This document shows positions 743 to 17,376 of a stretch of DNA of 23,354 bases, piece after piece. The stretch is from a virus. Every line of letters starts with the position of its first letter. Position 1 is the first letter of the stretch. Where the stretch lies: IMG/VR virus record IMGVR_UViG_3300025889_000977, positions 1 through 23,354 of that record; one strand, written 5' to 3'. The notes below the pieces were generated by a model, which was not told the origin of the DNA, did no database searches, and saw only the letters and a list, made by a program, of their open reading frames with translations. Position numbers and translations under genes: made by a program.

Positions 743-834
743 TGGCTCCAAGGTACATTCATAAAAATGGTAAATCCTATATTGATAAAAGGACACTACC
801 AAAAAAGAATAAACCAAAGAGAAAGAAAAAATGA
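742..834 (+). CDS. 30-aa strongly cationic peptide, unknown function
   Basis: The ATG at 742 shares its A with the TAA stop of ferredoxin (TAATG), and a GAGGA sequence at 731-735 lies at good Shine-Dalgarno distance. This is one of the clearer ribosome binding sites in the window. The peptide ends at TGA 832-834, which overlaps the next start (ATGA). Ten lysines and three arginines in 30 residues, against a single aspartate, make it extremely basic, with the charge concentrated in the second half (PKKNKPKRKKK). No family is recognised. The good ribosome binding site and the overlaps at both ends support it as a real translated ORF; a role as a coupling leader for the next gene is the main alternative. 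Confidence 0.62.
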   Translation: MAPRYIHKNGKSYIDKRTLPKKNKPKRKKK

Positions 835-1535
835 GTCAACTAGTCGTCAATCTCCCTCCACAGAAAGTCTGGGTTCGTAAAGAATACCTCAGAGACCTAC
901 AGGACGGTCATGGCGAGTTTGTAGAAGGCGTCTGGGTGTCGGCTAAGTCGATACCTGGGCGCGCATTTTATTTTGAGACATACTTGCCTGAATATGCAGC
1001 AATGTATGATAAACTCCCTATCAGTGCATTTGTGTCCCGTCCAGAGACGCCTGACCCCGATCTAGACCTTCCTAATCTACAGTTCTGGAACTGTATGGAC
1101 TATGGTGTCAGATGTATTGAGAAACAGTTCATTGGATCCATGGACTTTGAGTTGAGAACTCGCAACTATGGCTCAATGAAAGGTGAATATTTGTTTACAT
1201 TAGATAATTTCCATCCTGATGTGGACATAACTAACTGTAACGTGAGTGAAATTCCAGACGAACACAAGTCTCATAACTGCATTGAGCTTGAAAATGGTCA
1301 ATTTGCACTCTATCCAAACAACAGAATGCGTATTTTTGACCTCTCGATCACTCCAGAGGAACCAAAAATCCCCGATTTCAAAGTTTCTACCAAATATTAC
1401 CAAGTTGAGAACGGTGTAAGATGGGGTAGATTAGGTGATACGGACGAATATTTCTGGAAAACACCTGAGGAAAGTGAAATTTGTCCAAATTGCGGACAAA
1501 ATCCTTGCGATCCACGTTGTATAAACGCTGACTAG
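831..1535 (+). CDS. 234-aa protein with four-cysteine zinc-knuckle-like tail, unknown function
   Basis: The ATG at 831 overlaps the preceding stop by 4 nt and the frame ends at TAG 1533-1535. The first ~185 residues look like a globular, mostly beta protein rich in aromatic residues and prolines, with no signal peptide or membrane segment. Near the start, VWVRKEYLRDLQDGHGEF reads like a conserved binding motif, but I do not recognise the family. The C-terminus carries C218, C221, C226 and C230 (CPNCGQNPCDPRC), a C-x2-C-x4-C-x3-C arrangement that could bind one zinc. Regulatory or nucleic-acid-binding roles are possible but not shown. Arginine codons are a mix of AGA and CGN, intermediate between the genes before it and the structural genes after it. 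Confidence 0.85.
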   Translation: MSQLVVNLPPQKVWVRKEYLRDLQDGHGEFVEGVWVSAKSIPGRAFYFETYLPEYAAMYDKLPISAFVSRPETPDPDLDLPNLQFWNCMDYGVRCIEKQFIGSMDFELRTRNYGSMKGEYLFTLDNFHPDVDITNCNVSEIPDEHKSHNCIELENGQFALYPNNRMRIFDLSITPEEPKIPDFKVSTKYYQVENGVRWGRLGDTDEYFWKTPEESEICPNCGQNPCDPRCINAD

Positions 1536-1806: not shown

Positions 1807-2211
1807 ATGCCTGTCGTTCGCACATCACGTCGATTTAAGGATATTTCATTGTCCTTCCGAAGGCATCCTGTAACTAATGACGTGGTTGCAATCACAAATG
1901 AGGATGCAATTAAGAGATCTGTCAGAAATCTCGTCGAAACAATTAATAATGAGAGACCATTTAACTCTTTAATTGGCTCTGAGGTAAGAAGTAGTCTCTT
2001 CGAACCTGCTGATCGTGACGTTTTGACAAGATTAGAGGTGGAAATTGAGACTTCTATTAAAAACTTTGAGCCAAGAGTGAACTTAAGGTCGGTTTTGGCA
2101 TCGCATCCACCCGATACTAATGAAATTACGGTAGAAATTACCTACGACATCATTGGATTACCGTTACCGACACAAGAAGTAACATTTATTCTTCAACCAA
2201 CTAGAGAATAA
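1807..2211 (+). CDS. 25: Baseplate wedge protein gp25
   Basis: The 134-aa product belongs to the GPW/gp25 family, the small sheath-like wedge protein of contractile tails and type VI secretion systems. Recognisable features are the helix NEDAIKRSVRNLV (residues 31-43), the NNERPFNS segment just after it, and the conserved E-P-R at residues 88-90 in NFEPRVNL, followed by a beta-strand C-terminus. In T4, gp25 attaches to the gp6-gp7-gp53 wedge core and helps seed sheath polymerisation. Length is normal for the family (T4 gp25 is about 132 aa). The gene starts 23 nt after the late promoter box and ends in TAATG, so its stop overlaps the gene 6 start. No strong Shine-Dalgarno sequence is seen. 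Some databases label this family lysozyme, which is misleading. Confidence 0.95.
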   Translation: MPVVRTSRRFKDISLSFRRHPVTNDVVAITNEDAIKRSVRNLVETINNERPFNSLIGSEVRSSLFEPADRDVLTRLEVEIETSIKNFEPRVNLRSVLASHPPDTNEITVEITYDIIGLPLPTQEVTFILQPTRE

Positions 2212-4094
2212 TGGCGTTCACTCAATATACAAACCTCGATTTTGAACAGATTAAAGCGTCTCTACGCGAATATTTGAGGTCAAACTCCAATTTTACGGAT
2301 TTTGACTTTGAAGGATCTAACCTGTCCATTCTCATTGACACTCTGGCTTATAATTCGTACATTACGAACTATAATGCCAATATGGTTGCGAATGAATCAT
2401 TTATTGATAGCGCTACTTTGCGCGAAAATGTCGTAGCTTTAGCAAGAAATATCGGTTATGTACCTGCATCAAGAAGAGCCTCAACCGCAAATGTGAGTTT
2501 TTTCGTTGATCTGGGGTCAGGAACCACTAAATCTAGTGTAACCCTCAAGGCGGGTCTTGTGGCCGTCGGAGATTTTGCAAATACGAACTATACCTTTGCA
2601 ATCTCTGAAGATGTAACTTCTCCAGTTGTTGATGGAATTGCATCTTTCACATTAGACATCAAACAGGGAACATATCTCACCAAAGAATTCACTGTAGATA
2701 CCGCTCAGTCAAATCAAAGATACATTCTTCCAAACCCATTTATTGATACTTCAACACTTGTAGTCAAAGTAAAGGATACTAACTCTTCATCTACTGAAAA
2801 GACCTATTCAATGGTCGATAATATCGTTGGTATCAAGACTACTTCTGAAGTTTTCCTAATCCAAGAAGTTCAGGACGAAAAATATGAAATTCTGTTCGGT
2901 GATGGGGTAATTGGCAAGAAGTTATCCTCTGGAAATGTAGTCAAAGCCTCTTATGTTGTCTGTGATGGACAAAATGGTAATGGCGTAGCTAACTTTGCCT
3001 TTGCTGGTAAGTTGGTCAATAACGATGGTGGACTGATTACCACTGGAATTTCCGATATCACCACAAATCAACCATCAAGAAATGGTGCGGAGATTGAAAA
3101 CATCAGCACAATCAAAAATCTAGCACCAAGAGTATACGCATCTCAATATCGTGCTGTTACTGCGAATGACTATGAAGCAATCATTCCCACAATTTACTCA
3201 AATGCAGAAAGCGTAACTGCATATGGCGGTGAAGAATCAACTCCACCTCAGTTTGGTAAGGTATTTGTCTCTATCAAACCCAAAATGGGTCAGTTTGTCT
3301 CTGATTTCGATAAAAGACAAATTTTGGAGAAATTGAAGGGTTATTCTGTAGCTGGAATTAGACCAGAAATTATCGATCTCAAGTATCTGTTTGTTGAGAT
3401 TGATAGTACTGTTTATTATAACTCAAACATGACCTCAAGTACCTCTGTTTTGAGGACAAAAGTAATCAATTCTTTGAATACCTATTCAAACTCTTCGGAT
3501 TTGAACAAGTTTGGTGGCAGATTTAAGTACAGTAAGGCTCAAAGAATTATTGATGATACTGATACTGCGATTACATCAAATATTACAAAGGTAATTATTC
3601 GTAGAGACCTTGAAGCTGACACTGCAAACTTTGCTCAGTATGAACTTTGTTATGGTAACAAGTTCCACAATCGTAGAGAGGGTTATAACATCAAATCTAC
3701 TGGATTTACTGTAGATGGGATTAGAGGAACTCTTTATATGAGTGATGCTTATGTAAGTGAGACCAGAGGAAGAATTTTCTTGTTTAGATTAAGTTCAACT
3801 GGTGTAGTTGAAATCGTAAGAAGTAATATTGGAACCGTTAGATATGACACTGGTGAAATCCTTATAGATACAATAAGGATTTTGTCAACAGTTAAACCGA
3901 ACAATGTAATTGAAGTTCAAGCCATTCCCGAATCTAACGATATCATTGGTTTGAGAGATCTTTATGTTCAACTTTCTGTTGCCAATAGTACCATTAGTAC
4001 AGTTGAAGACTTAATTTCGACAGGCGCTGATACATCAGGTACTAGGTTTATCTCCACTTCTAGCTTCTCCAACGGAAAATATATTAGACAGTAA
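2211..4094 (+). CDS. 6: Baseplate wedge protein gp6
   Basis: The 627-aa product is close to T4 gp6 (about 660 aa), the wedge protein that dimerises to knit six wedges into the baseplate inner ring and is related to the gpJ family. The N-terminal region (about residues 30-90) has the family pattern of DFEGSNLSILIDTLAYNSY followed by ANESFIDSATLREN and a GYVP loop. A second conserved block lies at about 291-326, with N-G-A-E then APRVYASQYRAVTANDYEAI, as in gp6/gpJ proteins. The remainder is beta-rich. The gene is flanked by TAATG overlaps with 25 and with the giant gene, which implies translational coupling and controlled stoichiometry. Nothing appears broken or inserted, in contrast to its two large neighbours. 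Confidence 0.94.
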   Translation: MAFTQYTNLDFEQIKASLREYLRSNSNFTDFDFEGSNLSILIDTLAYNSYITNYNANMVANESFIDSATLRENVVALARNIGYVPASRRASTANVSFFVDLGSGTTKSSVTLKAGLVAVGDFANTNYTFAISEDVTSPVVDGIASFTLDIKQGTYLTKEFTVDTAQSNQRYILPNPFIDTSTLVVKVKDTNSSSTEKTYSMVDNIVGIKTTSEVFLIQEVQDEKYEILFGDGVIGKKLSSGNVVKASYVVCDGQNGNGVANFAFAGKLVNNDGGLITTGISDITTNQPSRNGAEIENISTIKNLAPRVYASQYRAVTANDYEAIIPTIYSNAESVTAYGGEESTPPQFGKVFVSIKPKMGQFVSDFDKRQILEKLKGYSVAGIRPEIIDLKYLFVEIDSTVYYNSNMTSSTSVLRTKVINSLNTYSNSSDLNKFGGRFKYSKAQRIIDDTDTAITSNITKVIIRRDLEADTANFAQYELCYGNKFHNRREGYNIKSTGFTVDGIRGTLYMSDAYVSETRGRIFLFRLSSTGVVEIVRSNIGTVRYDTGEILIDTIRILSTVKPNNVIEVQAIPESNDIIGLRDLYVQLSVANSTISTVEDLISTGADTSGTRFISTSSFSNGKYIRQ

Positions 4095-7000
4095 TGATCG
4101 ACACCGCTTCCAAGAAAGTCCAGATCAATCAGATCGTTAGAAGTCAATTACCTTCTTTTGTTCAAGAAGAAAGTCCATTATTTATTGATTTCTTAAAACA
4201 GTACTACCTTGCACAAGAATACCAAGGTGGTCCAATTGATATCATTACGAATTTAAATGAATATCAAAAGGTAGAGACTTTCAGTGGTAACGATAATCTC
4301 ATTGGATTTACTACTTGCACAAGTGCAGTAACTTCTTATGATGATACTATCAGTGTGACTTCTACGGCTGGATGGCCGCAGAAATATGGTCTTTTAAAGA
4401 TCGGTGATGAAATCATTACATATACGGGTGTAACCACAAACACGTTTACTGGGTGTATTCGTGGATTTAGTGGTGTAGAAAGCCTTCATAAGTCAAATCA
4501 ACCAGAAAGTCTGGTATTTACGTCTTCTACAGCAACAGATCACATCTCATCATCTAGAGTTGAGAATTTAAGTAATCTGTTCTTAAGAGAATTTTGGAAA
4601 AAAACCAAAGAACAGTTTTTACCTGGATTTGAAGATAGAGCTCTCAACAACTCTGTAGACAAGGCAAACTTTTTACGTCAGGCAAAAGATTTTTATGCTT
4701 CGAAGGGAACTGATGAAGCTGTAAAAATTCTTTTTAACGTTCTCTACAATGAGAGATCGGAAGTTATCAAACCAATTGAATATTTGATCGCACCATCTGA
4801 TGCAGACTATGTTGTAACTGATGATTTAATTGCAGAAGCTATTAGTGGTGATCCAATAAAGGTCATTGGACAGACTTTGTACCAAACTGGTAACGAAGGA
4901 GTAACTGGTTCGATATTTAATGTTCAGAGATATCAAAAGAACAACAAAGAGTACTACATTATAAGTTTAAGTAAAGGATCTGAAACTGGTGAGTTTGTTG
5001 TAACTGGATCTTCTACTTTATTAAAAAATGTAGCTATTGGTGCCACTGTGGTAACCGTAGATTCAACTCTTGGTTTTGAAAACACGGGCTCACTGTACGT
5101 TGGTGCTGGACAAACGGTAGGAATTGCTACTTATACAAGTAAGTCTTCAAATCAGTTCTTTGGTGTAACAGGTATCACATCAGCTTACTCTGATGGGGAA
5201 TTTGTACGAGGACTGAGAACTGTATATGCATTTGAAGATGGTGATTCTACAAAACCAGTTTATTTCCGTCTGACCTCAGTTGTTTCTGGTGTTGATCTGA
5301 ATGATGTTGGTTATTTGCGTTCAGGTGATATTATTAAACCAAAAACTTTAGGTCATGTATCTCCAGCTAACAACTACAGATTGAATTCTTGGTTGCATAA
5401 CTTAAAAACCAAAACAAAAGTTGCAAAAAGAGTTGATACTAACAAGTCGGTTATTGATACAGTAACTAACAATGTTACTACTGTTAGCCCACACCTTCTT
5501 CAGTTGGATGATTCGGTAACTCTTGTTGATGAGAGTTCTGCAATTCCATCAAACGTTGAAGGAACAGTAAGTCAAATTATTAGTTCACTGGAATTTAAGA
5601 TTAATATAACTTCTGGTTCTATTAATACATCTAAAACATATAGTGTAAGAAGAAATCTTAATTTTGCATCTAGCAATTCTGCATCGAATAGTGTATCTGC
5701 ATTCTTATCAAATGTTCAGAATACTTATTCTGATGTCGATGGACAAAAGTTCTATGTAACTTCTGGATCTTTACCATCATATAGAATCTATGCAACTGAC
5801 AGAAGAAAAACTTTTGAATCAAGTGATGTAAGTGGAACTCGTATTAGCATTACTAATCATGGATTCTATAATGGAGATCTGATTAAGTATTCACCAGTTT
5901 CAATTGGAACTAGTGCGATTGGTGGACTAACAACGGGAACCACGTATGCAGTAACCAGAATTGATACTGATACTATTTCACTTTCAAATAGTTTGTCTGA
6001 TGCATATTCGAAGAGATTTATCTCTCTTTCTGGAGCCGGGACAACTCACTTTGTTCTCCCATTAGAACTCTCTAACAAAAAACTTCAATATCAGAACTTC
6101 TTAAGAGAATTTCCCGTAACACCAGAACTTAAAGAGTTTGATAAACCTCTTAAGAATGAAAATATTGGAATGTTCAATAATGGTGTTGAAATTTTTTCAA
6201 ATAGATCTGGAGATTCAATTTACTATGGCTCTGTAGAAAATATTGATGTTGAAAATGGTGGATCTGGATATGATGTAATCAACTCACCAAATATTCACAT
6301 TGGTGATACGGTTGGTTCTGGAGCTACTGCATACGCAGTTGTTGAAAACGGAACTTTCAAGTCTATTGAGTTGCTTTATGGTGGATATGATATTAAAAAA
6401 GTTCCTTCCGTAAAAATTACTGGTGGTAATGGATCTGGCGCAACGGCTTCTGCAAGACTTAGACCACAGAGAAATACGAAAACATTTAATGCTGACATTG
6501 ATGTCAATATTTCTGGAAATCAAATTATATTCGGATCAAATCATCTCTTCTTTAACGGAGAATCTGTAGTTTATACTAAGGCGGATAACTACGCATCTGT
6601 TGGTGGTCTTGTTAATGGTTCACTGTATTATGTTCATAAAGTAAGTGACACCATCGTTCAATTGATGAACACATATGATGACGCTTTGGCTGGATTAAAT
6701 CCAATTAACTTGACAAGTAAGTCCGCTGGTACTAATACACTTAAAGCCACAACAGAAAGAAACGTAATTGATAAAATTGTAATTGAAAATTCTGGATCAG
6801 GATATTCAAACAGAAAAACTACAGTAAATTCTGTAATCTATCCACCATCTTCAATTTCTGATGATATTAGAAGTGGCATTAATACATCCGATGACTATGT
6901 GTACTTTAGAAATCATGGATTTGAATCTGGAGATCTTATTGAGTATTCTTCAAGTGGAAGTGTAATTGGTGGCCTTTCTGCATCAACCAATTATTACGTT

Positions 7001-10000
7001 ATTAAAGTAGACACAAACAGATTTAGAGTTGCTGATGCTGGTATTGGTACAACATCTACAACTCAAAACTTTGATAAGAATAGTTTTGTTGATTTAAGAT
7101 CTGTTGGAGCTGGTACACACACATTTAAGTATCCAGATATCAATGTAAGTATTGATGTAATTTCTGGTGTTGCAAATACTTCTATTTCCAGTCCAAGAGT
7201 TAGACCTGTCTGCACTGGATCAATAAGTGATGTTCAAATCACAAGTGTTGGAAGTGGATATGGTGTAACTGATACATTTAACGTACATAGAAGACCCAAT
7301 GTAACCATTTCTAATGGTAGTGGAGCTGAGATTGATGTTGTTGTTCTGAATGGTGAAATCAATCAGGCTTTAATCAAGACTGGTGGTAGTGGATATGCAA
7401 CTCCTCCAACATTAACTGTCAACGGAAGTGGAAAGTATGCAAAACTTGTTCCTACGGTTACTAATGGCGTCATTACATCTGTAAGTATTGTAGATAAAGG
7501 TGCTGGTTATTTTCAGAGAGACACTACTATTACAGTTACACCTGTTGGTAGTGGTGCTAAGTTTAGAGCTGATGTCAAGAAGTGGGATGTTGATTTTGTA
7601 CAGAAGTACAAAAAGACTATCAATGAAAATGATGATGGTATTATTATTCCAAGTCAAAATACGGACTATGGAAGTAAGTACTCTCATGCGTATTTGCCAA
7701 GGAAACTGAGATTGCTTCTTGGTGATAATATTGAAAGTAATTTTGTAGAAAAGTCAACAGTTTCTCACTCACCTATTGTTGGTTGGGCTTATGATGGATC
7801 GCCTATCTATGGACCATATGGATATTCGTCAGCAACTGGTGGAACTGTTCGTAGATTGATCCCAAGTTATACTTTAGACACTAAGTCGAATAGACCACCA
7901 ACGACTGTATATCCTCTTGGATTCTTCGTGAATGATTGGAACTACACAGCTGATGGTGACCTAGATGAGTATAATGGTAGATTCTGTAAGACACCAGAAT
8001 ACCCCAATGGTGTATATGCATATTTCTGCACAATTAATGCATCAAACAGTTCCGAAATCCCATTTGTAAGTAATAGAGAACCTCTGTTCCCATATATCTT
8101 GAATGGATTTAAGTTTGAGAAGAATTCATTTAATGAACAACCATCCTCCACTCAAAATCTCTCCATTCTGAACAGCGGTAATCTTGTAAGAAATACATAT
8201 CCATACAAATTTGGATTTTCTGGATCGGAATATGATTATCTTATCACCAATAATCTACAGTTTACAGAACTTGCGGTAAGATCCATCAAACCAATTGGTA
8301 TTAGTACAGTTACTGTAATTAATGGTGGTGACAGATATAAAGTTGGAGAAAGACTAGTTTTCAATAATCGGAACTCTGGTGGTAACTCTGCCTCAGCCAA
8401 AATTAAGACGGTTGTTGGAAGAGGAATCACTCAAATTTCATATACAGAAACTACGGTTGATAACATTGCATTTAATTATGATAATCAAGTTGTAACTGGT
8501 ATTGCAACAACGTCTCACAATTTATCAAACAACGATATTGTAATCGTAAGTGGTATTGGAACTGGTGAACTCAGTTTTATTGAAGGTGCAAGAACAATTG
8601 CAGTTTCCTCCGTAACAGCTAGACTTGACGTTGGTATTGGTACAAGTGGCGCAACAGGAATTACCACAACTCTCAATCTGGAACTTTCTGGGTCATCTAA
8701 TGCGATTTCCGTAGATGATGTGTTGATTGTGGGATCAACTCCCGAAAGACTTCGCGTTCTGTCTATTGATCGGGTAAACAACAAATATAGAGTTCGTCGT
8801 CAGGCAGGACTTGTAACTTCCTATGCAGCTGGTGAACTGTTGACAGTGGATCAACGGAAGTTCACTTTCATTGTTGGTGTTAAAACTGATCTGTCTATTG
8901 ATCCAAACAAGAAGATTGTATTTAATCCACAAAATTCCATCGGTATCGGGACAACAGTAGTTGTTCAGTCTGTTGCTGGGGTTGGAACAACTACTGTAAT
9001 AAGGGTAAAATCAAACGATGGAACAATACTCACAAATCATCAATTACCTCCCTCTGGCTCTACTGCAGACAACAGTATTACGATTGCAAATCATGGTTTT
9101 AGGACTGGAGAAAAATTGGTCTATGGTAGAGGACTTGTTGGAGTAGCTTTAACTGTATCAAATACTTTAAACTTAGCAAATCCATTTGATCTTGTTGATG
9201 GTCAGACTGTATATGCAGTCAATAAAGGACAAAATCTCCTTGGTATCACAACCACTCAAACTGGAATTGGAACAACATCAACATCTCTATATTTCTTACC
9301 AGTTCAAAATGATACTGGTGTAGAACACTCATTTACAACACAGAATAAAGAGTATGTTGGTTCTGTGAAGAGATATGATGTTACCGTTGGTACTTCTACT
9401 AACCACAATTTAAGAACAAGTGATAAAGTAACAGTAAATGTTCTGCCAAGTTCTACATTATCTAAATCCATTGAATATGACACTGTTGCTAGAAAAACAA
9501 TCGTAGATCCAAAGTATTTTGGAACATCGGCTGTAGGTGTTGGTACTTCAGTTTCTATTATTACAATTAGTAATCATGAATTTAAGAGTGGTGACAAAGT
9601 ACTTTATATCTCATCTAATCCAGCATCACCTCTCATCAACAAAGGCGAATATTATATTAAAAAAATTGATGATAATAGATTTAGATTATCAACAAATTAT
9701 GTTGATGCTGTAGGATTTAATAACAACTACATTGGAATTACAACCTTTGGTTCTGGTATTCATAAGATTGCAAAAATCAATCCATTGATAACTGCTACTA
9801 GAGGTAGAACCATTGGATTTGCTGTTTCTGATAGTAGCTTGTCTGATCTCAAACTTGAATTCTTTGAAGATCAAGACTTCATTAACAGATATGATGGTTT
9901 TGGAATTAGTACTGAAGTAACTAGAAGTGGAACATCTGGTTCATCTGGAGCTTTGGTAAACCTCAAACTTTCTGGAAATGTTCCACCTGTTCTGTATTAC

Positions 10001-13000
10001 AGATTAATTCCAACTAATCTTGATACTATCGATGTATCAAAGAGAGATAGTTCTCCTGATGAAGATGTTGTCAATGGATCAAAAATTGTAATTAATAATA
10101 GTGTATATTCTGGAACCTTTGGAATTACAACAACTTCTATCACTCAATATAAGTATCAAGTTAAGGAAAAACCAGAATCTTCTTCATATACATCATCTGG
10201 AATTACCACTTTCAAATATGTAACCAATTCAGCTACTGCTGTTGGACCAATTAATGAAATCGATGTTACTTTCCCTGGTGTTGGTTATGAAAAGTCTCCT
10301 GGAATTAGTACTGTAAGAACAACTTCTGGTTTCAACGCTGTTCTTCGTGTGTATGATGAAAACATTGGTAAATCAAGATTTGATGAAGTTATAAAGATTG
10401 GATTTGATTATCCATCAGACAAATCAGTAAAACCAAAGATTGATATTCCATCCTTTGTCACTCTGACCAAGAATTATAAGATTTCTGAGGTTGGAGTTGT
10501 GACGACTGGAAGAAATTATCTAACTGCACCAGATCTTGTTGTAGCTGGTAGGTCGGATATTCAACTTCGTGCAAATCTTGAAGGAACCTCCATCGATTCT
10601 GTTGATGTTCTTAGTGCTGCTCGTGGATTTAATGATGTTTCTAACCCCGCAAGAATATTTGCTGTTAGAAACAGTAACGGTATTGGTATTGTAACTGCAT
10701 CTTCAAATGGATCGACTAATTTCCTAACAATTTCTCAACCTACAAATGGTTGGGCTGCAGATGGATCTAACTTCCCATTTGTAGTTGGGGACAAGATTTT
10801 TGTAGAAGGGGTTGGAGTTACAACATCTCCTCTGACAACTGGTGGATATAATTCTGATGATTATGATTATGCATTCTTTACTGTTGCCACTAGAAATCCA
10901 ACCACATCACAAATTACTTACTCAATCACTGGTCTAGGAACAACTGGTGGAACTTTTGATCCAAATAATAGTGCGGGTAGAGTTATTAAGAGAAGTGACT
11001 TACCAACTTTTGAGGTAAAGGTAGAGACTGATGAGTTCTTGAGTGGTGAAAGAGTAACCTATGCATCAAATGGCTCTGGTATTGTGTTTGAAAATGATGG
11101 ATACAGCTCCATTACAAATACTTTGAGAATTGAGAATACAAACTCAGAAATTCTGAATGGATATGTCATTAAGGGATCTGTTTCTGGTGCAGAAGGAACT
11201 GTTGCTGATGTTAAATCATATGAAAAGTTCTTCAACACTGGATACAAAGCTGAAAGACCAAAAGGTTGGCAAAGGGACACTGGAAAGTTAAACAATGACT
11301 TCCAAAGGTTGGAAGATAGTGATTACTATCAAAACTTCTCTTATTCGATCAAGAGTGAAGTTCAAGAAACAACTTGGAAGGATGCCGTTGAAAGTATCAT
11401 TCACCCAACAGGGTATAAGAAGTTCTCCGATCTTGTAATTTCTTCAAATTCCACCGCTGGTTTTGCTAGAAGTAGAGATCTAAGAGTAACTGCTGGTGCA
11501 GCTAACACTTCCCTGTTCATTAACATTGACAACATCAAGTCATTCTATAATAGAGATGATTTTGATATTGCCTCTGAAGAGACAATTGCCAACGGTCTTT
11601 CTAAGTTTATTACATTCCAAAATAAGAACATCACAACGTTTGTCAACATTGTTTCTAACAAGGTAGATCAAATTGATGATATTTCTGGAAGTTTCACTGG
11701 AATTGGAACGACTACAAGCGCTTTACTAGTTGGTCTGACATCATTTAGACTTACTACAAATAACGGAAGTGAAATTCCATTCACCAAGGCTTTTGATGGA
11801 TCTAGTTCCTCTGTAATTTCAGTTGGATCTTCGATTATTAGAATTAATAATCATAATTTCCAAACTGGTGAGAAAATTAAATATGATCCTGGTAATGAAG
11901 TATATGGAAACAATAGAGTTGGTATCGAAACGACCAATAAAGTTATTGGTGGAGTTTCCACAAGTTTCTTACCAAGTCAACTCTTTGTTATCAAGATTGA
12001 CAACAATAACTTCTCCCTGGCTGGATTAAACACTGCTGTCACTAACAACGAACCACTTACATTCCGTTCAGTTGGAACTGGATCTTTACATTCATTCGAT
12101 ACAATTAATCCAGATAATAGAGTTATTATTGACCTTGATGGAATTATTCAGTCACCTCTTTACAAGAAGAACGTAGGTGTTGCTCTCACTGAAGCCGTGG
12201 GTGTTGGATCGACTACTATCAAGGTTGTTGGTGTTACATCAGTTACCACTAATGATTTGTTAGAAATTGATAGAGAAATCATCAGAATTAAAACAGTTGG
12301 ATTTGGATCAACCAATGTTCTTGAGGTAGAACGTGGAGTTCTTGGTAGTGTAGCCGCTGGACACACAGTCGGTGCGGCTGTAACCATGAAAGATGGTGAT
12401 TTCCACATCGTTAAAGATGTAATTCACTTCATTGCTCCTCCATATGGACCTGTAGGTGTCAACACTCTACAACCTGGTATTTCCACACAATCTAGTTTCG
12501 CTGGACGTATCTTTAACCGACAAGATCCAACAACAAACTTTGTATTTGATGATCTTTCAAATAGATTTACTGGTGTTGGGAAGACCTTTACTCTTCTTCA
12601 AAATGATCAAGATGTAACTGGAATTGTAACCACTAAAACTGGTGGGGGTGGAGTTGTAGAAGTTATTAATAATGGTGTCATTCTAATCAACAATATTTTC
12701 CAGAGACCGACTGTTGATTACAATATGGATGAAAGACAAGATCCTGGTATTGGTGCTTCTATCTTCTTTACTGGAGATGATAGAGAAAGTCTCCCTAGAG
12801 GCGGAATTGTAAATCGTGTTACGGTAGGATTTGGATCTGGATATCAGAACCTTGTTGCGGCTGCAGCAACTGCAATTATTAATGGTGCTGGATCAATCGA
12901 ATCTGTTGTCGTAACGGGTGGTGGATCTGGATATAGATCATCAAATTCTGTTGACATTCAAGTTCTTAATCCACTTGGAATTGGATCTACCGCCGTTCTT

Positions 13001-15748
13001 TCTGCGACTGTTGGTTCAGCTGGAACTGTTACTGGAATCACTACTGTAAGTGGTGGTACTGGATATGCGTCTACAAATCCACCAATTATTATTGTTGGTA
13101 TCCCAACAGCATATTCCAATGTTTCGTTTACTGGCGGTCAAGGCAGTGGTCTTGAGGCGACAATTGTAGTCGGTACTGGTGGTAGTGTAATTGACTTTAA
13201 TATTACTAATAATGGAATTGGATATGCCAATGGTGATGTTCTTACAGTCGCTGGTATTCCCACAGATCCAAATGTTGGTGCAGGATTTAGTGCATTTACA
13301 TTTACCGTAAATGCGACATATGATGATAAATTCTCTGGATTTAGTTTTGGTCAACTCTTACCATTGTATGATTTTTCTGGTGAATTTAATGGATCCAACA
13401 AAGTATTCACAATCAGAACCCGTATCACACAAGAGATAGTAAATATCGATTCAAATGATACATCTATTGAACCAGGTAATAATCTTCTCGTTGTTTTAAA
13501 CGACGTTCTTCAAAGACCTGGAGAGAATTACATTTTTAATGGTGGTACTCAGATTGAATTTACCGAAGCTCCAAAATCTGGTAGTAAACTTCAAGTTCTG
13601 TTCTTCAGAGGATCTAACACTGATGTAGATAGTGGTAGTCCAATCCAAACTGTTAAGGTTGGAGACAAACTTCAACTTCAGAGGGAAAGAAACTTCTTAC
13701 AACAGTTGAGAAGAACTGTGACCGATATTACAGGAGTAAGTAAGGTTCAAACCAACTTGTATGGTGGCGTTGGCATTAACACCGATCCAGCTTTCACAAG
13801 AATGGTTTCTTGGGAAAAACAAACTAGTGATTTGATTATCGATGGCCAGGAATTATCCAAGGCAAGAACCACTTTAATTGCAAAACTGCAACCAACTACT
13901 AGAATTATTCAAAATGTTGGTATTTCGTCTGACACCATTTTCGTCGAAAATGCATTCCCAATCTTTAGTGCATATGATAATAGATCGGATAGAAACACAG
14001 TTCCTGGTGTTGGTATCAACGTAATTAGAGAGAATAATGTAGATCAGGCTGACGCTTCCGCCACTGTTTCTATTGGAGGAACTATCTCTTCGGCTACGGT
14101 AACTGATCCTGGACTTGGTTATGAAACTGTTCCAACCGTTTCTTTTGCAACAACATACCAACAAATCAAAGAACTTGGTAAAACCTGGACACAATCAACT
14201 TCTAATACTGATATTGAATACAATGATGTAACTTATACATCTGGTGTCTTTATTGCTGTCGGAAGTACATCTGGAATTAATACTTCTTCGGATGCCGTAA
14301 CTTGGAATGATACTGGTGTCAGTGGATTTGGAACATTCTTTGGTGTTGATAGAATTTCTACGAACATTGTAGCCGTTGGTTTGGGTGGAACTATCGCAGT
14401 AAGTTCTAATGCATCCACATTTAATAGTGCTAGAATTTACAGTAGAACATTGACTGGTTTCCTTTATTCTTATTCAGATACAACTATTACCCAAGATCTT
14501 AACGCTTTTGTTGGTGGATCTACTAAGGGTGTTGCTGTTGGTGCTGGTGGAACCATTCTGTTTACTGAACAAGGATCATCGGGTTTTGGAACTGCTTTCG
14601 TAATCACAAGTAAGTATTCCTCACAAAACCTGCGTGGTGTTGGAAGTAGAGGAAATCTATTCGTTGCTGTTGGTGATAATGGATCTATTCTTAGATCTAC
14701 AAATGGTGAAATCTGGGCCGGTGTAACTACTACTGCAATTACAACAAGACTTAATGATGTTCACTATGCGGATGATAAGTGGATTGCTGTTGGTGCAGCT
14801 GGAACGATTGCAAGATCTACAGACAATGGATTGACATGGAGTGTTGTTTCTTCTGGTTCAACATTCAACCTGAACTCTGTTTACTACAATGATAATGTTT
14901 GGGTTGCAATTGGTCAGAGTGGAATGGTCCTCAATTCTGTGGATACAAACACTTGGTATAAGAAGTTTGTTGGTGTAGGAACCGATTACAATGGACTTAC
15001 GTTTGGTGGAGGAAAACTGGTAACGGTTGGTCTCTCTTCCAACATTGCATACAGTGTTCCTGAGACAGTATCTGCAGCCGCTACTGCAACGGTTTCAGCT
15101 GCTGGAACTATTTCTGCGATCACCATAACTGACGGTGGATTTGGTTATGATTCAAACAAATCTGTAGAGGTTCTGATTTCCGTAGAACCAGTTACAATTG
15201 AAACAGTGACAAGTGTTGAATGTGATGGTGATTATGGACTTGTCGTTGGAGTTGGAACAAGTGCAACTGGTGTTGGAACCGATAGTCCAATGGTCCAATT
15301 CGAACTTGATTCAAGTTCTTTCCTTGATCAGGCTGGATTTGGTAACATTGTAAGAAGTGGAATTCAAACTGGATACTACTTTGTTGTAACAAACTCTGTG
15401 GTTGGTAATGGTTTGACATCCATTAATACGGATGCAAGTGTAATTGGAGTTGGAACCACTTTCATCGACAATGTTTATCGTGCTGATTCCGTTGTAACCT
15501 CCAGTTCTGGTATTGTTACAGTATTCTCCAATGTTCAGTCCTTGGCTGGACTTGGAACAACCAGTCTGTCACCAAAAATTGGTAATTATAGTTGGGGAAG
15601 ATTCTATAACTTCACCAGAAACGTTCTTAATCCGCAGTCCTTTACAATCAATAACCAAAATGGTTATACGGGAATAACAACTGCTCCACTTGTGGTTCGT
15701 GTTCAAGGACTGAGTGAAAACTATAGTGACTTTGATCAGACCTCATAA
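4094..15748 (+). CDS. 7: Giant baseplate wedge protein, gp7-like, 3884 aa, multi-module
   Basis: One uninterrupted frame of 11.6 kb encodes a protein of roughly 0.4 MDa in the gene 7 position between 6 and 8. Residues 1-60 and 152-306 match the C-terminal part of T4 gp7 as I recall it: compare AKDFYASKGTDEAVKILFNV here with the YDFYSTKG...FLFKVLYNE segment of T4, then the later GQTLYQTG. The continuation of that region (YSIKS...W...HPTG) appears only at residues 2379-2460. Between and after are modules: RG-type at 77-140, 309-418, 1523-1593 and 2696-2764; NHGF-type at nine sites; GGxGY-type; a YHYH-like domain at 1215-1320; two NGVLQ-type modules at 2819-2903 and 3092-3181; and a seven-blade propeller at 3370-3655. 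T4 gp7 is about 1032 aa, and its N-terminal two thirds has no visible counterpart here. The gene starts by TAATG overlap with gene 6. A gp7 role is supported by position and core similarity; functions of the inserts are inferred. Confidence 0.85.
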   Translation: MIDTASKKVQINQIVRSQLPSFVQEESPLFIDFLKQYYLAQEYQGGPIDIITNLNEYQKVETFSGNDNLIGFTTCTSAVTSYDDTISVTSTAGWPQKYGLLKIGDEIITYTGVTTNTFTGCIRGFSGVESLHKSNQPESLVFTSSTATDHISSSRVENLSNLFLREFWKKTKEQFLPGFEDRALNNSVDKANFLRQAKDFYASKGTDEAVKILFNVLYNERSEVIKPIEYLIAPSDADYVVTDDLIAEAISGDPIKVIGQTLYQTGNEGVTGSIFNVQRYQKNNKEYYIISLSKGSETGEFVVTGSSTLLKNVAIGATVVTVDSTLGFENTGSLYVGAGQTVGIATYTSKSSNQFFGVTGITSAYSDGEFVRGLRTVYAFEDGDSTKPVYFRLTSVVSGVDLNDVGYLRSGDIIKPKTLGHVSPANNYRLNSWLHNLKTKTKVAKRVDTNKSVIDTVTNNVTTVSPHLLQLDDSVTLVDESSAIPSNVEGTVSQIISSLEFKINITSGSINTSKTYSVRRNLNFASSNSASNSVSAFLSNVQNTYSDVDGQKFYVTSGSLPSYRIYATDRRKTFESSDVSGTRISITNHGFYNGDLIKYSPVSIGTSAIGGLTTGTTYAVTRIDTDTISLSNSLSDAYSKRFISLSGAGTTHFVLPLELSNKKLQYQNFLREFPVTPELKEFDKPLKNENIGMFNNGVEIFSNRSGDSIYYGSVENIDVENGGSGYDVINSPNIHIGDTVGSGATAYAVVENGTFKSIELLYGGYDIKKVPSVKITGGNGSGATASARLRPQRNTKTFNADIDVNISGNQIIFGSNHLFFNGESVVYTKADNYASVGGLVNGSLYYVHKVSDTIVQLMNTYDDALAGLNPINLTSKSAGTNTLKATTERNVIDKIVIENSGSGYSNRKTTVNSVIYPPSSISDDIRSGINTSDDYVYFRNHGFESGDLIEYSSSGSVIGGLSASTNYYVIKVDTNRFRVADAGIGTTSTTQNFDKNSFVDLRSVGAGTHTFKYPDINVSIDVISGVANTSISSPRVRPVCTGSISDVQITSVGSGYGVTDTFNVHRRPNVTISNGSGAEIDVVVLNGEINQALIKTGGSGYATPPTLTVNGSGKYAKLVPTVTNGVITSVSIVDKGAGYFQRDTTITVTPVGSGAKFRADVKKWDVDFVQKYKKTINENDDGIIIPSQNTDYGSKYSHAYLPRKLRLLLGDNIESNFVEKSTVSHSPIVGWAYDGSPIYGPYGYSSATGGTVRRLIPSYTLDTKSNRPPTTVYPLGFFVNDWNYTADGDLDEYNGRFCKTPEYPNGVYAYFCTINASNSSEIPFVSNREPLFPYILNGFKFEKNSFNEQPSSTQNLSILNSGNLVRNTYPYKFGFSGSEYDYLITNNLQFTELAVRSIKPIGISTVTVINGGDRYKVGERLVFNNRNSGGNSASAKIKTVVGRGITQISYTETTVDNIAFNYDNQVVTGIATTSHNLSNNDIVIVSGIGTGELSFIEGARTIAVSSVTARLDVGIGTSGATGITTTLNLELSGSSNAISVDDVLIVGSTPERLRVLSIDRVNNKYRVRRQAGLVTSYAAGELLTVDQRKFTFIVGVKTDLSIDPNKKIVFNPQNSIGIGTTVVVQSVAGVGTTTVIRVKSNDGTILTNHQLPPSGSTADNSITIANHGFRTGEKLVYGRGLVGVALTVSNTLNLANPFDLVDGQTVYAVNKGQNLLGITTTQTGIGTTSTSLYFLPVQNDTGVEHSFTTQNKEYVGSVKRYDVTVGTSTNHNLRTSDKVTVNVLPSSTLSKSIEYDTVARKTIVDPKYFGTSAVGVGTSVSIITISNHEFKSGDKVLYISSNPASPLINKGEYYIKKIDDNRFRLSTNYVDAVGFNNNYIGITTFGSGIHKIAKINPLITATRGRTIGFAVSDSSLSDLKLEFFEDQDFINRYDGFGISTEVTRSGTSGSSGALVNLKLSGNVPPVLYYRLIPTNLDTIDVSKRDSSPDEDVVNGSKIVINNSVYSGTFGITTTSITQYKYQVKEKPESSSYTSSGITTFKYVTNSATAVGPINEIDVTFPGVGYEKSPGISTVRTTSGFNAVLRVYDENIGKSRFDEVIKIGFDYPSDKSVKPKIDIPSFVTLTKNYKISEVGVVTTGRNYLTAPDLVVAGRSDIQLRANLEGTSIDSVDVLSAARGFNDVSNPARIFAVRNSNGIGIVTASSNGSTNFLTISQPTNGWAADGSNFPFVVGDKIFVEGVGVTTSPLTTGGYNSDDYDYAFFTVATRNPTTSQITYSITGLGTTGGTFDPNNSAGRVIKRSDLPTFEVKVETDEFLSGERVTYASNGSGIVFENDGYSSITNTLRIENTNSEILNGYVIKGSVSGAEGTVADVKSYEKFFNTGYKAERPKGWQRDTGKLNNDFQRLEDSDYYQNFSYSIKSEVQETTWKDAVESIIHPTGYKKFSDLVISSNSTAGFARSRDLRVTAGAANTSLFINIDNIKSFYNRDDFDIASEETIANGLSKFITFQNKNITTFVNIVSNKVDQIDDISGSFTGIGTTTSALLVGLTSFRLTTNNGSEIPFTKAFDGSSSSVISVGSSIIRINNHNFQTGEKIKYDPGNEVYGNNRVGIETTNKVIGGVSTSFLPSQLFVIKIDNNNFSLAGLNTAVTNNEPLTFRSVGTGSLHSFDTINPDNRVIIDLDGIIQSPLYKKNVGVALTEAVGVGSTTIKVVGVTSVTTNDLLEIDREIIRIKTVGFGSTNVLEVERGVLGSVAAGHTVGAAVTMKDGDFHIVKDVIHFIAPPYGPVGVNTLQPGISTQSSFAGRIFNRQDPTTNFVFDDLSNRFTGVGKTFTLLQNDQDVTGIVTTKTGGGGVVEVINNGVILINNIFQRPTVDYNMDERQDPGIGASIFFTGDDRESLPRGGIVNRVTVGFGSGYQNLVAAAATAIINGAGSIESVVVTGGGSGYRSSNSVDIQVLNPLGIGSTAVLSATVGSAGTVTGITTVSGGTGYASTNPPIIIVGIPTAYSNVSFTGGQGSGLEATIVVGTGGSVIDFNITNNGIGYANGDVLTVAGIPTDPNVGAGFSAFTFTVNATYDDKFSGFSFGQLLPLYDFSGEFNGSNKVFTIRTRITQEIVNIDSNDTSIEPGNNLLVVLNDVLQRPGENYIFNGGTQIEFTEAPKSGSKLQVLFFRGSNTDVDSGSPIQTVKVGDKLQLQRERNFLQQLRRTVTDITGVSKVQTNLYGGVGINTDPAFTRMVSWEKQTSDLIIDGQELSKARTTLIAKLQPTTRIIQNVGISSDTIFVENAFPIFSAYDNRSDRNTVPGVGINVIRENNVDQADASATVSIGGTISSATVTDPGLGYETVPTVSFATTYQQIKELGKTWTQSTSNTDIEYNDVTYTSGVFIAVGSTSGINTSSDAVTWNDTGVSGFGTFFGVDRISTNIVAVGLGGTIAVSSNASTFNSARIYSRTLTGFLYSYSDTTITQDLNAFVGGSTKGVAVGAGGTILFTEQGSSGFGTAFVITSKYSSQNLRGVGSRGNLFVAVGDNGSILRSTNGEIWAGVTTTAITTRLNDVHYADDKWIAVGAAGTIARSTDNGLTWSVVSSGSTFNLNSVYYNDNVWVAIGQSGMVLNSVDTNTWYKKFVGVGTDYNGLTFGGGKLVTVGLSSNIAYSVPETVSAAATATVSAAGTISAITITDGGFGYDSNKSVEVLISVEPVTIETVTSVECDGDYGLVVGVGTSATGVGTDSPMVQFELDSSSFLDQAGFGNIVRSGIQTGYYFVVTNSVVGNGLTSINTDASVIGVGTTFIDNVYRADSVVTSSSGIVTVFSNVQSLAGLGTTSLSPKIGNYSWGRFYNFTRNVLNPQSFTINNQNGYTGITTAPLVVRVQGLSENYSDFDQTS
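4547..5011 (+). other. gp7 core segment, first half (within the giant gene)
   Basis: Residues 152-306 of the giant protein hold FLREFWKKTKEQFLPGFE, then ANFLRQAKDFYASKGTDEAV and LFNVLYNERSEV, then GQTLYQTGNEGVTG and a strand ending YYIISLSKGS. The order of these elements follows the C-terminal third of T4 gp7 as remembered (Y-D-F-Y-S-T-K-G, F-K-V-L-Y-N-E-E, V-G-Q-T-I-Y, then a W-T-V-T-I strand). This is the part I use to assign the gene to the gp7 family. Confidence 0.75.
7736..8053 (+). other. YHYH-like domain (within the giant gene)
   Basis: Residues about 1215-1320 contain VGWAYDGSPIYGPYGYSS and then LDEYNGRFCKTPEYPNGVYA followed by Y-F-C-T. This is the arrangement of the YHYH protein family (AYDGxPIYGPYG, then L-D-x-x-N-G, T-P-E-x-P-x-G, YHYH, T). 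The eponymous YHYH tetrad is replaced by Y-A-Y-F at residues 1308-1311, so both histidines are missing. If those histidines bind metal or catalyse in other members, this copy would be structural. Two cysteines (in RFCKT and YFCT) flank the motif. Confidence 0.75.
11228..11473 (+). other. gp7 core segment, second half (within the giant gene)
   Basis: Residues 2379-2460 contain DSDYYQNFSYSIKSEVQ, TTWKDAVESIIHPTGYKKF and DLVISS. T4 gp7, as remembered, has the matching order S-Y-Y-V-M-K-I-K-S, W-K-S-D-V, then H-P-V-G-F-G-F about thirty residues after its first core segment. In this protein the same two pieces are about 2,070 residues apart, so the inserted material must loop out from a continuous fold. 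Confidence 0.62.
12815..13271 (+). repeat. Cluster of GGxGY protein repeats (within the giant gene)
   Basis: Residues about 2908-3059 contain four consecutive copies of a roughly 35-45 residue unit built around an aromatic turn: VGFGSGYQN, TGGGSGYRSS, SGGTGYAST and NNGIGYANGD. Each is followed by a beta strand (for example VDIQVLNP, PPIIIVGI, VLTVAGIP), and several also by a G-S-G/G-I-G segment and a further strand. The codon-level similarity is high around the glycine turn, suggesting recent tandem duplication. Single or paired copies occur elsewhere in this protein, in gp8 and in the next gene. Confidence 0.75.
14201..15058 (+). repeat. Seven-bladed Asp-box beta-propeller (within the giant gene)
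   Basis: Residues about 3370-3655 contain seven repeats of the form L-N-x-V-x-Y, then W/F-V-A-V-G-x-x-G-x-I-x-x-S, and in several a T-W strand end. The A-V-G strands start near residues 3386, 3425, 3480, 3523, 3563, 3603 and 3642, mostly 39-43 residues apart. Asp-box-like turns are visible as SSDAVTW, STNGEIW, STDNGLTW and SVDTNTW; the third blade is degenerate (FTEQGSSGF). The pattern fits sialidase/BNR or Ycf48-like propellers. In a virion protein a ligand-binding or structural role is more likely than catalysis. Confidence 0.82.
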
Positions 15749-15771: not shown

Positions 15772-17376
15772 ATGCCCGCGATTATTTCAGATCAATTTAG
15801 AATATTAAATGCTGCGAATTTCGTCGCTGGTGTAGCGGACACTTCACAGTCTTATTACACTTTTATTGGATTACCAAACTCCAATGATGTTGCAGCTGGT
15901 TATGGTACTACCGATTGGAATACCAATACACCAGCTCCTAAGGATGGGTTTAGAGAGTATAATGATGATTATGATACCATGATCGCTCTCAAAAAACTCA
16001 CCACTGGTGATGTAAAGAGATTGGTTAGAAAGTACACATGGACATCTGGAACTGTCTATGAGATGTACAAAAACAACTATACTAGGACAAATCTAAGTCC
16101 TCAAACATCATCGACTAACCTCTATGATGCAAAATATTATGTGGTGAATAGTCAATACAGAGTATATCTTTGTATTAATAACGGCCAAAGTCCAGAAAGT
16201 CCTCTTGGGGGTCGATCTCTTGATGAACCAACATTTACTGGTCTTGAACCAAGATCGGCGGGAACCAGTGGTGATGGATATGTTTGGAAATATTTGTATA
16301 CAATCAATCCATCAGACATTATCAAATTTGATTCGATTGATTATATTCCAGTTCCTGAAAGCTGGGGATCTGGAGATACATCTGACGTAAAAAATAACGC
16401 GGTTGATGGAAAAATCGAAACAGCATTGATTGTTAATGCTGGTGGTGGTTATCAACCAATCTCTACTACTTTCTCAAATATTCCAATTTTGGGAGATGGG
16501 ACTGGTGGTAAAGCTAGTGTTACTGTAGATTCTCAAGGTAAAGTATCTAACGTTGCGATTACTAATGGTGGTACTGGATACACCAGAGGAACAATTCAAT
16601 TTTATCCTGGTGCTCCTGGTGCCGAAACTGGTGGTGCAATTGCAGGTCTTTCTGCAGTTGGTGTTGGCACAACGTCTGTAGCTCAGTTTGAAGTTGTTAT
16701 TCCACCTCCAGGTGGACATGGATATGATGTTTATAAGGAGTTGGGTGCTTTTAGAGTTCTTCTCTACTCTCGTTACGAAAATGACGCTTCAAACCCAGAC
16801 TTCATTACTGGAAATGACTTTGCAAGAGTTGGTGTAGTTAAGAGCCCACTTACTCCTGCTGGTAGTTTACTCACTCAATCAAGAGCAAGTGCCTTAACAG
16901 CTCTGAAGTTGAGAAACTTAACTGGTGGTGATATTGCAAACACCACATATACTGTAGATACTCCAGTTTATCAAACAATTGGTGTTGGATCTACCGCTGT
17001 TGGTTATGTTGCCAACTGGGATTCATCAACTGGTGTTCTGAAATTATATACACCAGTTGGACTTGGGTCAACTGCATACGGGTTTAGAAGTATAGATTTC
17101 ACTTCGCAAATTGGTGCTGGTGGAACATATGTGGTTAGTGGACAAACTGGTGGAGATGCTCTTGGCATTGAAACTAGCTTTGGTAGTTCCGCAAATCCTG
17201 GAACCGCAACGACTGTTGGATCCGCATCAGTTCAACTTGGACAAAGTTTTGTTCAAGGTGTTGCTTTACCAGAAGTTCAAAAATATTCTGGTGAGATCTT
17301 ATACATAGATAACAGGGCAGCGATCCAACGCAGTGCCACCCAGAAAGAAGACATCAAAATCGTATTAGAGTTCTAA
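15772..17376 (+). CDS. 8: Baseplate wedge protein gp8, enlarged by inserts
   Basis: The 534-aa product matches T4 gp8 (334 aa) at both ends and in the middle. The N-terminus reads ISDQFRILNAANF; GDGYVWKYLYTINPSD lies near residues 170-185; and the C-terminus SGEILYIDNRAAI...EDIKIVLEF parallels the T4 ending SGEMIYMENRPPI...EEINILFTF. In T4, gp8 dimers bind gp7 and gp10 in the wedge periphery. The extra ~200 residues sit in two places: about 219-320, with GGGYQP, GGTGYTRG and GVGTTS motifs, and about 380-495, with GVGSTAVG and GLGSTAYG motifs. These inserts use the same module vocabulary as the giant protein upstream. The gene lies 20 nt after a late-promoter-like box and ends 4 nt before the next gene. 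Confidence 0.93.
   Translation: MPAIISDQFRILNAANFVAGVADTSQSYYTFIGLPNSNDVAAGYGTTDWNTNTPAPKDGFREYNDDYDTMIALKKLTTGDVKRLVRKYTWTSGTVYEMYKNNYTRTNLSPQTSSTNLYDAKYYVVNSQYRVYLCINNGQSPESPLGGRSLDEPTFTGLEPRSAGTSGDGYVWKYLYTINPSDIIKFDSIDYIPVPESWGSGDTSDVKNNAVDGKIETALIVNAGGGYQPISTTFSNIPILGDGTGGKASVTVDSQGKVSNVAITNGGTGYTRGTIQFYPGAPGAETGGAIAGLSAVGVGTTSVAQFEVVIPPPGGHGYDVYKELGAFRVLLYSRYENDASNPDFITGNDFARVGVVKSPLTPAGSLLTQSRASALTALKLRNLTGGDIANTTYTVDTPVYQTIGVGSTAVGYVANWDSSTGVLKLYTPVGLGSTAYGFRSIDFTSQIGAGGTYVVSGQTGGDALGIETSFGSSANPGTATTVGSASVQLGQSFVQGVALPEVQKYSGEILYIDNRAAIQRSATQKEDIKIVLEF

Follow-up and report, generated by a model that had tools for sequence, protein, structure and literature searches.

The window analysed here, meaning the whole stretch of 23,354 bases that makes up virus record IMGVR_UViG_3300025889_000977, carries a single giant open reading frame (ORF) at 4094..15748, on the plus strand like all the features placed below, which belongs to PHROG 2885 and sits where T4 has gene 7. 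From its ATG start the ORF runs for 3,884 codons with zero internal stops, corresponding to a protein of 415.7 kDa. It shares one base with the end of gp6 (2211..4094; baseplate wedge, Pfam Gp6-like_1st E 1.6e-17, PHROG 219), which follows gp25 (1807..2211; baseplate wedge, Pfam GPW_gp25 E 2.5e-13), and it sits 5' of gp8 (15772..17376; baseplate wedge, 534 aa, Pfam Phage-Gp8 E 4.9e-10, PHROG 438): the gene order is 25-6-7-8, with the giant ORF in the gp7 slot between gp6 and gp8. As judged from the sequence comparisons that follow, the ORF encodes gp7 in a marine, T4-like cyanophage close to S-CAM9 (Kyanoviridae), and the conserved core of this protein keeps the order of T4 gp7 and is opened at a single site, near T4 829-832, by about 2,070 residues.

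The first-pass annotation, made from the sequence alone, had taken the giant protein for gp7 and had placed its conserved core in two blocks. Both claims hold, on the evidence of the gene slot, of collinear matches to T4 gp7 and of profiles built without T4, which rank the gp7 sequences first. PHROG 2885, labelled 'baseplate wedge subunit', matches in four stretches (E 0, 3,316.7 bits), the best of them aligning residues 3-2542 of the protein with positions 4-2553 of the 4,179 in the profile. Using phmmer with the whole giant protein against the PDB, the sole sequence returned is T4 gp7 (E 0.035), in two segments: residues 193-263 align with T4 gp7 727-787 and residues 2415-2442 with T4 gp7 862-889, the second segment being collinear with the first and non-significant alone (score -4.3). 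The T4-free profiles, made from seven sequences per block, were searched in 177,635 PDB sequences. That of block 1 puts the two gp7 sequences of the PDB at ranks 1 and 2 (E 1.7e-4 and 4.8e-4), and so does that of block 2 (E 0.031 and 0.044, the next match, an unrelated one, being at 0.15). Alone, block 2 is thus weak; its position, its order and the compact relatives back it. Upon inclusion of T4 and three further relatives, T4 gp7 fits at 4.1e-24 (block 1) and 1.7e-19 (block 2), values which are circular for T4, and the second gp7, that of 9f4a, reaches 3e-17 and 1.6e-16 against the same enlarged profiles; the E-values of all our small-set profiles, for core and modules alike, are circular after the first round. 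Among the Pfam families, PF23786 ('Phage baseplate wedge subunit'), whose listing does not include T4 gp7 itself, matches block 1 at E 2.6e-5 with 24.3 bits, just below its cut-off of 27. Gp7_5th has no match in the window protein at E 0.1, and Gp7_helical has none there either; domain VI (PF21456) gives none at E 0.01 in the whole giant protein and was likewise not found in five relatives scanned whole.

The site of the opening is defined by the extended profiles, of which that of block 1 stops at T4 817 and that of block 2 resumes at T4 831, the break falling inside Pfam gp7 domain V (T4 766-861); the corresponding points in the window are near residues 307 and 2376. The short core profiles are 56 residues apart in T4 and 2,108 in the window, and the earlier estimate of about 2,070 residues here against about thirty in T4 is a fair one, the measured values being 2,068-2,108 and 13-56. 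Block 1 with the first part of domain V (aa 152-307, 4547..5014) is supported by phmmer, profiles and a structural match, and block 2 (aa 2376-2455, 11219..11458) by phmmer and profiles. Between them, the insert (aa 308-2375, 5015..11218) amounts to 2,068 aa and 222 kDa, as delimited by the gap between the core profiles, with boundaries placed by alignment. The C-terminal extension that had been proposed after block 2 is indeed there, with about 1,430 residues (aa 2456-3884, 11459..15745) and no T4 gp7 match by phmmer or Pfam.

At the opposite end, the N-terminal core helix region (aa 10-62, 4121..4279) is recognised by a profile found in 12 of 13 gp7 proteins, T4 being the exception. This profile begins at residue 10 of giant gp7, with no T4-type N-terminal ~640 residues before it, and by this measure the protein falls outside the T4-type subtype with a long N-terminus. 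The first-pass annotation was therefore right in that the N-terminal two thirds of T4 gp7 are not present here, but the absence need not be a loss: because the core helix starts the protein in all 16 named phages other than T4, the ~640 residues, absent in these 16, are better read as an addition in the T4 lineage.

So long an ORF could in principle also come from a merger of gp7 with structural genes next to it, or from faulty assembly of the contig, instead of growth at the insertion site; modules of a similar sort are indeed shared with other structural proteins, PHROG 460 and 701 matching both gp7 and gp8. We consider this very improbable, since the core blocks flank the extra residues on both sides, the gap sizes among relatives are graded (see below), and equal lengths are found in other contigs and in S-CAM9. 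In the latter (NC_031922, Kyanoviridae), which by its sequence is close to the window among the named phages compared, the same slot holds a coding sequence of equal length, 3,884 aa. Also, among 14 IMG/VR loci bearing block 2, 10 have the giant ORF at 3,882-3,891 codons, stop to stop, one of the ten being open at the contig edge and another probably being S-CAM9 itself. The agreement of these lengths excludes an assembly artefact or a broken ORF.

We have compared the gap, taken as the number of residues between the short core profiles, in 17 named phages and the window. T4 and Desulfovibrio phage 7757 have a gap of 56, pf16 has one of 203, and Xanthomonas phage X1 and Stenotrophomonas phage BUCT608 have 208 each; the gap widens to 319 for Pelagibacter phage Mosig, 338 for Methylophilales phage Melnitz-2, 753 for Sinorhizobium phage phiN3 and 1,070 for S-CRM01, from a reservoir. 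In the marine cyanophages it rises from 1,507 (S-CAM4), 1,545 (S-RIM44) and 1,755 (S-CAM1) through 2,108 (window), 2,116 (S-CAM9), 2,178 (P-SSM2) and 2,308 (P-HM1) to 2,699 (S-ShM2) and 2,770 (S-WAM1). The split is real and not peculiar to one phage: all eight named marine cyanophages measured have both blocks with a YHYH domain between them, which excludes a recent insertion confined to the window phage, while the gaps of 1,507-1,755 and of 2,770 exclude a narrow range of insert sizes in this group. A split gp7 looks to be the normal form in marine T4-like cyanophages. The short-gap types are equally regular in IMG/VR, where both blocks were found in 79 of 80 Mosig-type loci (gap 315-335; the best 80 of 449 for the Mosig query) and in 80 of 80 Melnitz-type loci (gap 336-373; the best 80 of 145 for the Melnitz-2 query). 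For the cyanophages, 62 ORFs with both blocks and YHYH have gaps of 2,101-2,328; they come from the best 80 of at least 597 YHYH loci plus 14 window-clade loci; the remaining matches lacked a block, a good number of them being truncated in the sequence retrieved, and L103 and L192 are one and the same contig. As these ORFs were picked by likeness to block 2 or YHYH of the window, the set leans to window-like members. Besides this site, S-ShM2 (L014:13126-30402) and S-WAM1 (L275:12114-28585) have ~610 additional residues ahead of block 1, after the N-terminal helix, and by the positions of the profiles this region is a second place of growth of gp7 in these two phages.

Part of what is inserted recurs. 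Of 11 relatives, five (P-HM1, S-CRM01, Mosig, Melnitz-2 and phiN3) have a match to a C2 profile upstream of block 2, with further copies elsewhere in the first four. The C2 domains of the window type and of the Mosig/Melnitz type align by hhalign over 47 columns with a score of 96.5, against 8.4 for the best of 15 shuffles. Repeats that we call GSGY, when compared profile to profile with the inserts of the Mosig/Melnitz type, of X1/BUCT608 and of S-CRM01, score 54.7-96.0 in eight comparisons, the best values being 96.0, 95.2 and 94.6, respectively; upon column shuffling 0 of 30 reach the real value in any of the eight, with maxima of 0.5-4.3. Taken together, the gaps and profiles indicate that one site in the gp7 core takes from 56 to ~2,770 residues and that some modules recur there.

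Several observations weigh against extending this to a single history. The C2 profile misses the other 6 of the 11 relatives (P-SSM2, X1, BUCT608, pf16, T4 and the Desulfovibrio phage), and there is no clear GSGY match for the inserts of pf16 (0.9 and 1.3) or phiN3 (4.1 and 9.5), so that some insertions, or some insert edges, may have arisen independently. In a gp6 tree of 14 phages, which carries a long-branch warning, the group of the marine phages with S-CRM01 has values of 93/98 and is not starred; within it the window and S-CAM9 form a pair (99/98), which P-SSM2 joins next (100/99). S-ShM2 has no settled place among the earliest marine branches and the deeper order lacks support, so that growth of the insert along a lineage is at most a possibility on this tree. 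A duplication of the barrel described below is not claimed as the origin of the insert, the similarity between its flanks being weak and out of register (hhalign 51.2 over 18 columns in the Mosig/Melnitz type and 0.7 in the window clade).

The break inside domain V raises the matter of how the blocks are arranged in space, and the first-pass annotation had made contact between them a condition of its proposal. For a Mosig-type gp7 (L031, 874 aa), modelled from a 58-row alignment, the mean predicted local distance difference test score (pLDDT) is 59, with 10-residue means of 68-93 over residues 251-600, except for 411-450 (30-44). The first match by Foldseek is a 9f4a chain of 1,031 residues (E 2.4e-4, prob 0.99), taken as gp7 from its length, 9f4a_AY being the chain that bears the gp7 name; an S-layer protein comes second (prob 0.20) and a gp7-sized chain of the T4 baseplate third (E 4.6e-3, prob 0.91). 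With VIA-align the three highest rows are again gp7 chains: model residues 240..614 superpose on 9f4a gp7 761..854 (Z 10.5, root-mean-square deviation (rmsd) 2.6, 94 aligned), residues 247..614 on 5iv5 765..856 (Z 10.2, 90 aligned) and residues 239..603 on 5hx2 gp7 758..843 (Z 8.7, rmsd 4.2, 85 aligned). Because a 94-residue span of gp7 is aligned nearly fully over 375 residues of the model, the barrel draws on both sides of the insert, and this relative is predicted to have one gp7 domain V barrel built from both flanks. In this relative, with its gap of 319 residues, the barrel thus spans the insert, and contact of the two blocks themselves is no more than possible, their helices being of low confidence there.

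For the window, a model of residues 150-1340 (mean pLDDT 84, predicted template modelling score 0.70) consists of the block 1 helices followed by nearly all beta structure, and ends before block 2. Its residues ~238-405 align with gp7 domain V (T4 gp7 760-852) with Z 8.2, 8.1 and 7.8, values near the level that the alignment tool calls common. A second reading of the core follows from this model, namely that it is unsplit within the domain: domain V would be complete at residues ~240-395, its last hairpin carrying a Ma module (see below), and the ~1,980 residues that follow domain V would form an inter-domain array before block 2. The superposition of T4 gp7 765-840 on window residues 240-395 (model 91-246) is in its favour, with 76 aligned residues, rmsd 2.1 and Z 8.2; yet, as the model is cut before block 2, the closing strand at ~388-395 may be a stand-in, the relative folded with both flanks takes the barrel end from model residues up to 603-614 (pLDDT 55 in 601-610), and in the alignment a short strand-like segment precedes block 2. 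We regard it as a serious possibility, but not the leading one. The points which count against a core split within domain V and closed by block 2 are then that the block helices of the Mosig-type model have a pLDDT of 26-55; that the domain V matches of the window model are at ranks 25, 27 and 31, below ubiquitin-E1 rows matching another module; that Foldseek finds no PDB match to the window model at E <=0.001, 9f4a being at rank 2 with E 8.8e-3; and that residues ~388-395 fill the position of the last strand in this model without block 2, so that the window's domain V may already be complete ahead of the long insert.

The other parts of the window model resemble common small barrels, such as Uba1 residues 180-259 (Z 9.4) and ATPase N-terminal barrels (Z ~7-8), and these values may reflect shared shape only. 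When the model is compared with predicted viral proteins, the baseplate wedge initiator of Synechococcus phage Bellamy scores highest, with a template modelling score of 0.77 by query length. The modelled part of the insert is predicted to be a string of small beta domains together with YHYH. Two observations concern the tail sheath: residues 260-338 of the X1 gp7 insert (L011:8779-10275) are over the Pfam cut-off for domain I of sheath protein Gp18 (E 2.9e-6), and the Mosig-type insert (L031 model 373-495) is structurally like T4 gp18, which is at rank 4 in VIA-align with Z 8.6. They hint at a relation of gp7 insert modules to the outer domain of the sheath; two GSGY segments of the window, with 39 relatives each, have no gp18 match in Pfam or the PDB, and gp18 is absent from the 50 structural-match rows of the window model.

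The residues between the blocks are made up of extra modules, as had been supposed. Those found by profile are designated here Ma, HGF, GSGY and C2, and since the GSGY and HGF profiles began to pick up each other's members upon iteration, conservative counts are used. A first copy of Ma, a small beta module detected by an iterated profile, precedes block 1 (aa 76-136, 4319..4501). Directly after block 1 there is a Ma-like module (aa 312-363, 5027..5182), followed by HGF beta module 1 (aa 579-662, 5828..6079), GSGY repeats (aa 717-837, 6242..6604), which also have the profile-profile matches to the inserts of relatives, HGF module 2 (aa 803-888, 6500..6757), with the Uba1-like barrel shape, HGF module 3 (aa 929-1013, 6878..7132) and a further GSGY repeat (aa 1094-1137, 7373..7504). 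The single YHYH domain (aa 1192-1318, 7667..8047) is found by Pfam (PF14240, E 1.8e-26). Beyond it we find a Ma module (aa 1519-1596, 8648..8881), HGF modules 4 (aa 1656-1739, 9059..9310) and 5 (aa 1816-1892, 9539..9769) and, directly upstream of block 2, the C2 domain (aa 2303-2377, 11000..11224; profile and hhalign). The C-terminal extension contains HGF module 6 (aa 2575-2664), bringing the copies in the giant protein to six, and another Ma (aa 2698-2786), both by profile.

The extension also comprises an Asp-box (BNR) propeller-like segment (aa 3383-3645, 14240..15028), for which phmmer against the PDB returns only Ycf48-like proteins (E 2.2e-5) and the BNR repeat fails its cut-off (E 0.031). 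Ycf48 is a photosystem II assembly factor, and one phage gene bearing the propeller is annotated 'photosynthesis system II assembly factor'. The segment is matched in 19 phage records, in 11 of them within genes annotated gp7 or baseplate wedge; it is present in the window and S-CAM9, was not found in P-SSM2, P-HM1 and S-ShM2, and has weaker matches in a few others. As to its capture from a cellular gene, no relative was found in one scan of genome contigs.

Two neighbouring genes call for comment. Besides gp7, gp8 (15772-17376) is enlarged too: it has 534 aa where the T4 protein has 334. PHROG 460/701, which match the gp7 insert, also cover gp8 residues ~209-314, so that gp8 may contain an inserted module of the gp7-insert kind. 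The 234-aa ORF at 831-1535 matches PHROG 3704, labelled ferredoxin, at E 2.9e-112. In S-CAM9 the ferredoxin annotated there is a separate 96-aa gene, 3' of a 250-aa hypothetical gene, and in S-CAM4 the ~219-aa gene there is annotated ferredoxin; the label on the window ORF may be wrong.

Regarding the role of the insert, its conservation within the window clade (five relatives) is rather even, mean identity being 69.6% in the N-terminus plus block 1, 61.5% in the insert, 71.8% in block 2 and 65.0% in the C-terminal extension. The lowest 120-residue bins are at 54% in the insert and at 47% in the propeller part of the extension, and the YHYH bin (1201-1320), at 73%, is the most conserved of the insert. 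Another reading makes the insert mainly an array of host-recognition adhesins, in which YHYH and the other modules would bind cell-surface sugars and have little structural role; the patchy occurrence of the C-terminal propeller (19 phage records) goes in that direction, but the even identity relative to the core blocks, the maximum at YHYH, a minimum bin still at 54% and the order of blocks and YHYH kept in 62 ORFs (fetched by block 2 or YHYH likeness) make it a rather improbable account. The lack of a hypervariable patch in the insert within the window clade argues against the insert as the main receptor-binding part, and it is counted against the peripheral-arm reading below.

The reading that we favour, with some margin of doubt, is that of a split gp7 core reunited on gp6, from which the insert extends as a peripheral arm. 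The two blocks would meet on the (gp6)2 dimer and form the wedge core as in T4 and in TssG of the type VI secretion system (T6SS); the insert would exit the core via a loop comparable to the TssG loops that anchor TssK trimers and project as an arm of small beta domains, and this arm together with the C-terminal extension would make up a large part of the baseplate periphery, where it would carry or take over the role of the N-terminal domains of T4 gp7 and of gp10/gp11. The equivalence of the insertion loop with the TssG loops is one that we infer by analogy, which detracts from this proposal, and the function of the giant insert is likewise suggested by analogy. In line with the earlier idea of a rebuilt wedge initiator, gp7 is a plausible candidate scaffold for outer modules. 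Six giant copies would weigh 2.49 MDa versus 0.72 for T4 gp7, ~1.8 MDa more. In a set of 12 records the gp11 family occurs in one (T4) and the gp9/gp10 family in three (T4 and, weakly, Melnitz-2 and Mosig), with none in the four cyanophages of that set. A further step, which we put forward tentatively and hold to be unlikely as it stands, is that the peripheral T4 baseplate (gp7 N-terminal domains, gp10 and gp11) is replaced by one covalent arm grown in a loop of the gp7 core, relaying receptor sensing and baseplate opening into the gp6-gp7 trifurcation; if true, sensing and opening signals would run within a single chain of 0.4-0.6 MDa.

In the literature, excerpts of PMC7029224 state that pelagi- and cyanomyophages lack T4 Gp7, VrlC apparently taking its place. 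As worded there, this is contradicted by the profiles, according to which members of both phage groups keep gp7 in its slot. VrlC is the annotation, in P-HM1 and Mosig, of the gene at the position of the DUF4815-domain protein, which in the window starts at 17381 and continues past the window end, and both phages have the gp7-slot core plus this separate gene. The name gp7 is not new, because GenBank already labels several such proteins: P-SSM2 and P-HM1 have it as gp7, S-CRM01 as 'gp7-like', and S-CAM9 and S-WAM1 as baseplate wedge. In Sullivan et al. 2010 (PMC3037559) gp7 is listed among non-cyanophage core genes and as highly divergent. No description of the split-core anatomy or of the gap series was found in the literature covered, which mostly leaves out subscription journals. 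The outcome is that gp7 is now identified in phages for which a published comparison calls it absent, and that the gene-7-slot proteins of Melnitz-2 (L007:7192-9882) and Mosig (L008:8983-11607), annotated hypothetical and containing both gp7 core blocks, gain a name.

Compared with known systems, giant gp7 shares with the gp7 of T4 (5hx2, 5iv5) and of 9f4a (Klebsiella phage KP1 variant) the order of the blocks, the domain V barrel and the neighbours gp25, gp6 and gp8, and its gene slot equals that of T4 gp7. It differs from T4 gp7 in that the N-terminal ~640 residues are missing, about 2,070 residues are inserted near T4 829-832, the C-terminus is extended by ~1,430 residues and Pfam detects no domain VI; the T4 N-terminal addition and the cyanophage insert look like two different ways to build a baseplate periphery. 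The gp7-slot proteins of P-SSM2 (5,195 aa), P-HM1 (4,446 aa) and S-CAM9 (3,884 aa), all of PHROG 2885, have the same two blocks and YHYH, and across the marine cyanophages such proteins, annotated gp7, baseplate wedge or structural protein, vary in gap (1,507-2,770) and in C-terminal extension. Those of Mosig and Melnitz-2 have the same core opened at the same site, a C2 before block 2 and, in the joint alignment, GSGY modules, but unlike the window their gap is just 319-338 and there is no YHYH profile match. According to excerpts of PMC3004832, T4 gp7 is a wedge protein present in six copies per tail, one domain of which swings out at baseplate opening while another touches gp10. Beyond the T4-like phages the likeness is drawn from published descriptions only, as excerpted: a relation of TssG and P2 gpI-type proteins to gp7 is described in PMC6300606 and PMC5813253, TssG being the T6SS counterpart, two core loops of which hold receptor-binding-like TssK trimers (PMC6300606), and for the XM1 gp7 orthologue, gp17, unresolved flexible regions are reported to help bind the tail spike (PMC10457771). 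Both TssG and XM1 gp17 would take the gp7 position in a (gp6)2-gp7-like heterotrimer and use loops or flexible parts to bind peripheral receptor-binding components, both being far smaller than giant gp7, with 242 aa in XM1 gp17.

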